64,000 nucleotides of DNA from Actinophytocola sp. GTDB lineage: Bacteria; Actinomycetota; Actinomycetes; Mycobacteriales; Pseudonocardiaceae. Below are positions 23,949-26,327 of this stretch, piece after piece. The stretch lies in assembly GCA_009377395.1 (NCBI GenBank), contig WHUB01000005.1, positions 1,768 through 65,767 on the forward strand, written 5' to 3'. The notes beneath the pieces are model-generated. The model had not been told where the DNA came from. It searched no databases and saw only the letters and a program-made list of their open reading frames with translations. The position numbers were made by a program, and so were the translations under genes. How positions within the stretch are numbered: position 1 is the first letter of the stretch; the number at the start of each line of letters is the position of its first letter.

Positions 23949-24974
23949 TCAGCCGAAGAACACCTGGGCTTCCTCGTAGCGGTCCTTCGGCACCGTCTTG
24001 ATCTTGGCGGTCGCCTCGGACAGCCTCACTCGGACGATATCGGTGCCGCGCAACGCGACCATGGTGCCGAAGTCGCCGTCGGCGACCGCCTGGGTGGCCT
24101 GCAGCCCGAACCGGGTCGCGAGCACCCGGTCGTAGGCGGTCGGCGTGCCGCCCCGCTGCACGTGGCCGAGCACGACCGCGCGGGACTCCTTGCCGGTGCG
24201 GTCGGCGATCTCCTCGGCGAGCCACTGGCCGACGCCGCCGAGCCGGACGTGGCCGAAGGCGTCCCGTTCTCCGGAGTGCAGCAGCTCGGCGCCGCCGACC
24301 GGGACCGCGCCCTCGGCGACCACGATGATCGGCGCGTACATCCGCTCGAACCGGCGCTCGACCCACTCGACCACCTGCTCGACGGAGAACTCCCGCTCGG
24401 GCACCAGGATCACGTTCGCGCCACCGGCCAGGCCCGAGTGCAGCGCGATCCAGCCCGCGTGCCTGCCCATCACCTCGACGACGAGCGCGCGGTGGTGCGA
24501 CTCGGCCGTCGTCCGCAGCCGGTCGATGGCCTCGGTGGCGATGTGCACCGCGGTGTCGAAGCCGAAGGTGTAGTCGGTCGCGTCGAGGTCGTTGTCGATC
24601 GTCTTGGGCACGCCGACGACGTTCACGCCGTCGTCGGTGAGCCTGCTCGCCACGCCGAGGGTGTCCTCGCCGCCGATGGCTACCAGCGCGTCGACGCCCT
24701 GCTCGGCGAGCGTCGACTTGATCCGGCCCGCGCCGTCGTTCTCCTTGTAGGGGTTGGTGCGCGAGGATCCGAGGATGGTGCCGCCGCGCGCCAGGATGTC
24801 CTCGACGTGGTCGAGCCCGAGTGGCCTGCTGTCGCCGGTCATCGGTCCCTGCCAGCCGTTGCGGAAGCCGACGAGGTCCCAGTCGTAGTCCTCGATCCCC
24901 TTGCGCACCACCGCCCTGATCACGGCGTTCAGTCCAGGGCAGTCGCCGCCGCCGGTCAGCAAGCCAACACGCAT
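23949..24974 (-). CDS. pfkA: ATP- or PPi-dependent 6-phosphofructokinase
   Basis: MRVGLLTGGGDCPGLNAVIRAVVRKGI...GGTILGSSRTNP...VGVPKTIDNDLDATDYTFGFDTA...EVMGRHAGWIALHSGLAGGAN. Confidence 0.96.
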   Translation of the reverse strand: MRVGLLTGGGDCPGLNAVIRAVVRKGIEDYDWDLVGFRNGWQGPMTGDSRPLGLDHVEDILARGGTILGSSRTNPYKENDGAGRIKSTLAEQGVDALVAIGGEDTLGVASRLTDDGVNVVGVPKTIDNDLDATDYTFGFDTAVHIATEAIDRLRTTAESHHRALVVEVMGRHAGWIALHSGLAGGANVILVPEREFSVEQVVEWVERRFERMYAPIIVVAEGAVPVGGAELLHSGERDAFGHVRLGGVGQWLAEEIADRTGKESRAVVLGHVQRGGTPTAYDRVLATRFGLQATQAVADGDFGTMVALRGTDIVRVRLSEATAKIKTVPKDRYEEAQVFFG

Positions 24975-25090
24975 ACATCCTCCGGGTTCCTCTGTGCGGG
25001 GCCTCACATCGCCGGGTTCAGCCTAGTCACGGCCACTGGATCGGTGCAGCCGACCCACCCCGGGCCACCGGATGTGCGCACCAAGCCTGT

Positions 25091-25096
25091 TACGGT
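25091..25096 (+). promoter_or_regulatory. Candidate extended -10 (TG-T-TACGGT) for the aro leader transcript
   Basis: TANNNT hexamer 7 nt before the ATG at 25104, suggesting a leaderless leader peptide; inferred. Confidence 0.45.
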
Positions 25097-25103
25097 GATG
25101 CCC

Positions 25104-25169
25104 ATGCGGCGCTATTTCTGGTTTAGCGAGCCGGCCCTGGGTGGGCACGGCGGCCGAACCTTGCGCTGA
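25104..25169 (+). CDS. Putative aromatic-amino-acid leader peptide MRRYFWFSEPALGGHGGRTLR (absent from ORF track)
   Basis: ATGCGGCGCTATTTCTGGTTTAGC...TTGCGCTGA; four consecutive aromatic codons Tyr-Phe-Trp-Phe, 70 nt upstream of the DAHP synthase ATG. Confidence 0.8.
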   Translation: MRRYFWFSEPALGGHGGRTLR

Positions 25170-25178
25170 CCTCTCACC

Positions 25179-25222
25179 CCGAGCCGGAACCACAAGCCGG
25201 CTCGGACGCCCGGGGCGGCTTG
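25179..25222 (+). promoter_or_regulatory. Candidate attenuator stems between aro leader peptide and DAHP synthase
   Basis: Stem A: CCGAGCCGG(25179-25187)/CCGGCTCGG(25197-25205). Stem B: CAAGCCG(25193-25199)/CGGCTTG(25216-25222), which abuts the SD GGAGAAAGGAAG. The two share 25197-25199 and cannot form together. Confidence 0.6.
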
Positions 25223-25238
25223 GAGAAAGGAAGACACC

Positions 25239-26327
25239 ATGCCGCCGACCGCAGGCAGAGGCGAAGCGTCCCCCATCGAGTTGCACAACCAGCGCGTCAC
25301 CGGCGTCAGCCCGTTGCTGTCGCCCGCGTTGCTCCGGCAGGAGCTCCCGCTGGCACCGGCCGCCGCCAAGACGGTGAGCCAGGGCCGCGCCGACACCGTC
25401 GGCGTGCTGGGCGGTGACGACGACCGGCTGCTGGTCGTCGTCGGGCCGTGCTCGGTGCACGACCCGGACGCCGCGCTGGACTACGCCGCCAAGCTGGCCA
25501 CGCAGGCCGAGCGGCTGGCCGACGACCTGCACATCGTGATGCGGGTGTACTTCGAGAAGCCCCGCACCACCCTCGGCTGGAAGGGCCTGATCAACGACCC
25601 CGATCTCGACGGCAGCTTCGCCGTCAACCGGGGTCTGCGCATCGCCCGCAAGCTGCTGCGCGACATCTCCGAGCTGGGCCTGCCGGTGGGCTGCGAGTTC
25701 CTCGACCCGATCACCCCGCAGTTCATCGCCGACGCGGTGAGCTGGGGCTCGATCGGCGCCCGCACCGCCGCCAGCCAGGTGCACCGGCAGCTGTGCAGCG
25801 GCCTGTCCATGCCGATCGGCATCAAGAACTCCACCGAGGGCGACGTCCAGGTCGCGGTCGACGCCACCCGCGCGGCGGCGGCGAGCCACGTCTTCCCCGG
25901 CATCAACGACGACGGCCTCGCCGCGCTGCTGACGACGTCGGGCAACGCCGACTGCCACGTCATCCTGCGGGGCAGCGCGGCGGGACCGAACCACGACGCC
26001 GCCACCGTCGCCGCCACGCTCGCCCGGCTGGCGAAGGCGGGCCTGCCGGAGCGCGTGATCATCGACGCCAGCCACGGCAACAGCGGCAAGGACCACCGCC
26101 GTCAGGCCGAGGTCACCGCCGAGGTCGCCGAGCGCATCGCCGCCGGTGAGCGCGGCATCACCGGCATCATGCTGGAGAGCTTCCTCGCCGAGGGCAGGCA
26201 GGACCTCACGCTCGGCAAACGCGACGAGCTCGACTACGGCAGCAGCATCACCGACGCCTGCATGGACTTCGACACCACGAGCGGACTGCTCGACCGGCTC
26301 GCGACCGCCGTCCGCTCTCGCCGCTGA
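25239..26327 (+). CDS. aroG: 3-deoxy-7-phosphoheptulonate (DAHP) synthase, class I (E. coli AroF/G/H type)
   Basis: VVVGPCSVHDPDAALDYAAKLA...LHIVMRVYFEKPRTTLGWKGLINDPDLDGSF...SWGSIGARTAASQVHRQLCSGLSMPIGIKNSTEGD...SSITDACMDFD. Confidence 0.95.
   Translation: MPPTAGRGEASPIELHNQRVTGVSPLLSPALLRQELPLAPAAAKTVSQGRADTVGVLGGDDDRLLVVVGPCSVHDPDAALDYAAKLATQAERLADDLHIVMRVYFEKPRTTLGWKGLINDPDLDGSFAVNRGLRIARKLLRDISELGLPVGCEFLDPITPQFIADAVSWGSIGARTAASQVHRQLCSGLSMPIGIKNSTEGDVQVAVDATRAAAASHVFPGINDDGLAALLTTSGNADCHVILRGSAAGPNHDAATVAATLARLAKAGLPERVIIDASHGNSGKDHRRQAEVTAEVAERIAAGERGITGIMLESFLAEGRQDLTLGKRDELDYGSSITDACMDFDTTSGLLDRLATAVRSRR

Follow-up and report, generated by a model that had tools for sequence, protein, structure and literature searches.

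Leaders described upstream of related genes

DAHP synthase catalyses the first step of aromatic amino acid biosynthesis. In Corynebacterium glutamicum, the DAHP synthase gene aroF is preceded by AroR, a leader with Phe-Tyr-Phe which is reported to raise aroF transcription under Phe but not under Tyr limitation (PMC11802643, PMC4046766; original report Neshat 2014). The trp attenuators, E. coli TrpL and the trp leaders of Corynebacterium and Streptomyces (PMC1262725), have a short ORF with codons for one amino acid, the pathway's end product, followed by alternating 1:2, 2:3 and 3:4 pairings, with a U-tract terminator as 3:4. Actinobacterial ilvB leaders are leaderless ORFs whose codons specify several end products of one branched pathway, in their case the branched-chain amino acids, and they come with candidate terminators; mutating the leader codons in S. 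coelicolor had no effect (PMC1262725, PMC8079986). The actinobacterial LEU element upstream of leuA (PMC1262725) lacks a terminator, and its leucine codons pair with the Shine-Dalgarno (SD) region in a pseudoknot. In Acholeplasma, a member of another phylum, the uORFC-13-1 motif before aroF includes a candidate uORF with codons for Phe only and is followed by an intrinsic terminator (PMC8632094). A 2005 actinobacterial survey gave no conserved structure for phenylalanine or tyrosine operons (PMC1262725), and among the eight leaders of a Streptomyces lividans survey Trp is the sole aromatic (PMC8079986). Our literature search, which covered few subscription papers, returned no report of a pan-actinobacterial element, of a four-segment structure or of a terminator-less form.

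The leader described here lies in the window, the whole 64,000-nucleotide stretch of Actinophytocola sp. DNA that was analysed. Like AroR, it is an aromatic leader that immediately precedes a DAHP synthase gene; it differs in containing Tyr-Phe-Trp-Phe, with Trp, rather than Phe-Tyr-Phe, in lacking a terminator, and in a switch for which four alternating segments, the last of them at the ribosome-binding site, are supported. In an order member with a small genome (L191), the leader MWRFYFSKAPEAETS contains the Phe-Tyr-Phe reported for AroR together with a helix of the 1:2 type, features by which it may form a bridge between the two. With the trp attenuators, the locus shares a short ORF with a run of end-product codons and the alternating 1:2, 2:3 and 3:4 pairings (3:4 by covariation, 1:2 and 2:3 by permutation), whereas its 3:4 helix in the window is not an intrinsic terminator with a U-tract. 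It resembles the ilvB leaders in its leaderless ORF and codons for several end products, the LEU element in leader RNA that can pair with the SD region, with no terminator but a different sequence, and uORFC-13-1 in placing Phe codons in a small ORF 5' of a DAHP synthase gene. The sequence-only reading that led to this analysis had contrasted the leader with single-amino-acid leaders such as TrpL and PheL. Codons for all three aromatic amino acids are indeed present, but the contrast is softened by AroR, an aromatic leader already known (PMC11802643).

The leader ORF and its genomic setting

The class I DAHP synthase gene of the window (aroF/aroG/aroH family; TIGR00034, 484 bits, E=1.5e-145), the presumed target of regulation, occupies 25239-26327 of the plus strand. 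Its likely SD core is AAAGGA at 25226-25231; relatives keep (GA)AAGG. The gene on the other side of the leader, at 23949-25007, encodes a phosphofructokinase on the minus strand, and the leader therefore lies outside any larger operon coming from upstream.

Read directly from the DNA, the leader ORF (25104-25169, plus strand) runs ATG CGG CGC TAT TTC TGG TTT AGC GAG CCG GCC CTG GGT GGG CAC GGC GGC CGA ACC TTG CGC TGA and encodes a peptide of 21 residues, MRRYFWFSEPALGGHGGRTLR. Codons 4-7, TAT TTC TGG TTT at 25113-25124, specify Tyr-Phe-Trp-Phe, and a gap of 69 nt separates the stop codon from the DAHP synthase ATG (25239). Re-reading the sequence bore out the ORF, the aromatic run and the coordinates first proposed for them. 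When the 530-nt upstream region was simulated 5000 times with a Markov model, 0.24% of the simulated sequences contained a small ORF with four or more aromatic residues in a stretch of six; the aromatic leader is real and beyond chance.

A -10 hexamer, TACGGT (25091-25096, plus strand), lies 7 nt 5' of the leader ATG and would put the transcription start at or beside this ATG. Hexamers of the form TANNNT stand 5-9 nt, almost always 6-7 nt, 5' of the start codon in 105 of 122 actinobacterial leaders, where shuffling expects 2.4. The placement of the -10 element thus agrees with the earlier suggestion of a leaderless peptide, and points to a leaderless start across the set.

The sensor motif is a single-copy feature of the Actinophytocola genome, with no second copy within 3 mismatches. 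The same genome also encodes a class II DAHP synthase, at which no aromatic leader was found, the sole matches falling ~1250-1300 nt into that locus. A fragment on a 719-base contig outside the window (G000:C265:1-333) shares 62% identity with the DAHP synthase of the window, and is either a paralogue or contamination in a fragmented assembly.

Four RNA segments with alternating pairings

The RNA between the aromatic codons and the ribosome-binding site has the make-up of a four-segment attenuator with alternating pairings 1:2, 2:3 and 3:4, as judged from the aligned sequences. Segment 1 (25131-25145; CCGGC at 25131-25135 and GGGUGGG at 25139-25145) lies within the ORF right after the aromatic codons, and segment 2 (25173-25187; CUCACCC at 25173-25179 and GCCGG at 25183-25187) lies past the stop codon. 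These two stretches form helix 1:2. Through CCGAGCCGG (25179-25187), segment 2 can alternatively pair with segment 3 (CAAGCCGGCUCGG, 25193-25205) in the 9-bp stem A, 25179-25187/25197-25205. Segment 3 can also pair with segment 4 (CCGGGGCGGCUUG, 25210-25222) in stem B, whose 7 bp (25193-25199/25216-25222) grow inward past one G-G mismatch by another 5 bp (25201-25205/25210-25214). This yields a GC-strong 12-bp hairpin of about -20 kcal/mol, with its loop at 25206-25209, just upstream of the ribosome-binding site. All four segments are on the plus strand.

Stems A and B are present and mutually exclusive, as the sequence-only reading had described them. It had found 2:3 and 3:4 but missed helix 1:2, for which permutation gives support. 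Of its view that the 3' arm of stem B runs into the SD, only the overlap of one G (25222) with GGAGAAAGG stands, while the likely SD core AAAGGA lies 3 nt past the stem. A further pairing that it had considered, GAGCCGG (25128-25134) with 25197-25203, is not conserved: the GCCGG core belongs to the conserved helix 1:2 and the GAG before it is variable among relatives, and this 1:3 pairing was rejected.

The helices were evaluated in alignment A1, made of 41 terminator-less leaders, and in leaders from across the class. In A1, 92% of the cells of helix 3:4 are paired and 37 cells have both sides changed, for example AAGCCG/CGGCUU versus GGACCG/CGGUCC. Its covariation score, calculated with kinship ignored, is 0.321 against 0.180 for shuffled alignments (0/500 reach it) and at most 0.102 when the helix is slid. 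Helix 2:3 is almost invariant in this close alignment; across the class its two sides change in step (CGAGCCGG/CCGGCUCG, CAGAGCCGGC/GCCGGCUCUG, UUCAGAGCC/GGGUUCUGAA), with a permutation score, again ignoring kinship, of 14.57 against 13.34 +/- 0.165 (0/300). Helix 1:2 occurs as GGGUGGG/CCACCC, GGAUGGG/CCAUCC and GUUGGCUCUGAAGG/CCUUCAGAGCCAAC, with paired changes in its variable columns, and scores 19.48 against 16.33 +/- 0.25 (0/300), significant within each sequence type too, kinship likewise being ignored. A possible extra helix, CAGCGC/GCGCUG, joins codons 2-3 (25107-25112, plus strand) to the last codon and stop (25163-25168). It is nearly invariant in A1 and in Pseudonocardiaceae, with zero paired changes and hence no covariation evidence; it is no more than suggestive, and might limit repeated translation of the leader.

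Conservation across actinobacteria

Covariance model R1, built from A1, finds a single locus in each of 67 among 151 Pseudonocardiaceae genomes, including one copy in the Actinophytocola genome. In 66 of the 67 the match immediately precedes a class I DAHP synthase gene, and the remaining one is at a contig end. One positive genome has an additional weak antisense match at the same place. R1 has zero matches in genomes of the family that lack class I DAHP synthase, and within this one family, Pseudonocardiaceae, the element is tied exclusively to class I DAHP synthase. Searches with Rfam gave no match at gathering level in the window or in 8 relatives, and none up to E=1 at positions 24980-25300; the leader matches none of the cis-regulatory families (riboswitches, T-box, amino acid leaders). 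Pfam and NCBIfam hold no entry that matches the element.

To follow the leader further, upstream regions were gathered for enzyme relatives in Pseudonocardiaceae genomes, at 80 named loci and in other families of the order and class. The rule for selecting leaders was three aromatic residues in six, which does not demand three different kinds, and gave the set of 122 actinobacterial loci. Leaders of the type M(Q/R)RYFWFSxPAxGG...R precede nearly all orthologues of ~65% identity or more. Leaders elsewhere include RAYFWFSRPA in Rhodococcus, RSYRWFRQPA in Micromonospora, YWRFIEAPGGA in Mycobacterium and RSYWRFFEWPA in Kribbella, so that the aromatic run is conserved in Pseudonocardiaceae and beyond, with varying form (YFWF, YRWF, YWRF, WYRF, WYAYF). 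Absence of the run from relatives, which the sequence-only reading had named as a refutation, was thus checked and did not refute it. The leader was not detected before most of the more distant class I paralogues (~45-62% identity), in Nocardiopsis and in some others. In genus g25 (L113, L115), the aromatic codons or the frame have decayed and the segments near the SD are still partly recognisable; these leaders are a natural loss and a possible control.

Tyr, Trp and Phe all occur within seven codons in 118 of the 122 leaders; some leaders are without Trp (L182, L187, L201 and L204). The three-way rule is thus strong, if not absolute. An alternative to which we give a little less than even weight is that the leader senses mainly one amino acid, Phe for example, with the other aromatic codons incidental or fine-tuning. 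The reported response of AroR to Phe and not Tyr (PMC11802643) and the leaders without Trp speak for it, but retention of three residue types in nearly all leaders, in changing order, speaks against it. The codons of the run are also unusual: TAT makes up 113 of 138 Tyr codons (82%) and TTT 125 of 179 Phe codons (70%), compared with 6.5% and 8% in the downstream genes. Such rare U-ending codons may reflect selection for slow, supply-sensitive decoding.

Proposed mechanism

In the model that we infer from these sequences, transcription would start on the leader ATG or directly beside it, and translation by a ribosome would begin in leaderless fashion. When the aromatic tRNAs (Tyr, Phe, Trp) are charged, the ribosome would pass quickly and segment 1 would pair with segment 2, which would leave segment 3 free for segment 4, form the hairpin against the ribosome-binding site and turn the enzyme off. 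When these tRNAs are scarce, the ribosome would stall on Tyr-Phe-Trp-Phe and cover segment 1; segment 2 would then take segment 3 (stem A), so that 3:4 would not form, the start region would be exposed and the enzyme would be made. That there is a stalling switch as such is highly likely, and it is probable that it takes the form of an attenuator that couples aromatic aminoacyl-tRNA supply to class I DAHP synthase synthesis. The direction of the switch in the earlier reading, stalling as on and fast passage as off, is consistent with this arrangement. Its proposal that a ribosome finishing the peptide would mask the 5' arm of stem A finds no support, as a normal footprint reaches only ~25181; helix 1:2 appears to be the conserved means of freeing segment 3.

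Folding calculations show a near tie between the off state (-60.0 kcal/mol) and the on state (-61.5 kcal/mol). When a ribosome is modelled on Trp or Phe4 of the complete leader, the folding programme still prefers 3:4, which goes against the switch model. During co-transcriptional folding, 1:2 is predicted to reach 92% before segment 3 has been transcribed, and with a ribosome on Trp or Phe4 stem A is predicted at 100% when the transcript reaches 25206; at this point stem A also wins in the ribosome-free equilibrium, again against the model. Since the energies give no clear winner, the model leans on co-transcriptional order. We discarded folding energies as proof of the switch, the energy model being bistable and not deciding between the states. 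A further point against the model is that the 3:4 hairpin abuts the SD core without covering it.

Translational or transcriptional output

A search of the window for a terminator-like site with a U-tract returned none. By strict search, 35 relatives have a terminator, which in every case separates segment 2 from segment 3 (as does GGCAGAGGCGAAUCGCCUCUGCCUUUUGUUUUG; one false call, L114, is excluded). At L061, L062, L127, L202 and ~30 other loci, a conserved hairpin, GGCAGNGA...UCNCUGCC, and a short U-run lie between these segments. Leaders with and without a terminator alike retain helices 1:2, 2:3 and 3:4, and in most of them 3:4 finishes near the ribosome-binding site. Translational control is therefore favoured in the window, and we consider it somewhat the better supported output in this genome; the terminator would then best be seen as an added or lost layer.

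The same sensor could also act on transcription, with 3:4 or the untranslated stretch after the leader ending transcription via Rho or a U-less hairpin terminator, after the manner of a classical attenuator. This is less likely than not: the hairpins with T-runs in the ~35 relatives, the transcriptional attenuation reported for AroR-aroF (PMC11802643) and the strength of the 3:4 hairpin all fit it, but the window has no terminator-like site and the constant position of 3:4 beside the SD points to translation. Antitermination in the terminator-bearing relatives was tried and rejected, as ViennaRNA gives similar terminator formation without a ribosome, with a stalled one and with one at the stop codon (mean 0.85, 0.86 and 0.85). 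Returning to translational control in the window, we tentatively propose that one conserved actinobacterial leader reads Tyr, Phe and Trp jointly to control the entry enzyme of the pathway and that its output differs by lineage, with a terminator and a start-site hairpin in many actinobacteria and the start-site hairpin only in most Pseudonocardiaceae and Rhodococcus/Nocardia, this genome included.

Conservation reaches past the aromatic run and includes the C-terminal Arg, as might be expected of a TnaC-like arrest, in which the nascent leader would stall the ribosome by binding free aromatic amino acids within the exit tunnel. However, the residues past the run shift from GG to DG, SG or NG along with changes in segment 2. 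They follow the RNA pairing with no fixed peptide motif, and this part of the peptide is therefore probably constrained by pairing and not by peptide function. The leader ends likewise fit an RNA helix, the run itself varies and the rare U-ending codons suit control by decoding, which makes peptide-sensing arrest quite improbable. A chance small ORF with palindromes can be dismissed, for even though stems arise easily in GC-rich DNA, stem A itself being a perfect GC-rich palindrome, the rarity of the aromatic run (0.24%), the conservation, the covariation and the unique genomic placement contradict it.

The element is thus real, conserved and mechanistically legible, and an aromatic leader at aroF was already known from C. 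glutamicum. A case known from one Corynebacterium is extended to an element of clear architecture in actinobacteria, with no Rfam match in the loci tested. A single leader that has codons for each of the three end products of a branched pathway is an unusual type of sensor for the first enzyme that they share. A terminator that some leaders have and others lack, between segments that are otherwise conserved, makes a change of output testable. Amycolatopsis and its relatives produce aromatic-derived natural products, which makes the element a practical target where precursor supply is to be raised.

Small ORFs with many aromatic codons also occur upstream of class I DAHP synthase genes at nine proteobacterial loci, among them SFYFWYYGFPMPLAEEG in Xanthomonas, RYYFWFYGYPMPLAEVG in Dyella, AFYFYFYGFLKPLAEEG in Bordetella and MSAKFYFYFFWHLRPLADREG in the Burkholderia group. 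Six of these loci were compared with Rfam and gave no match; the ORFs are possibly a parallel system.
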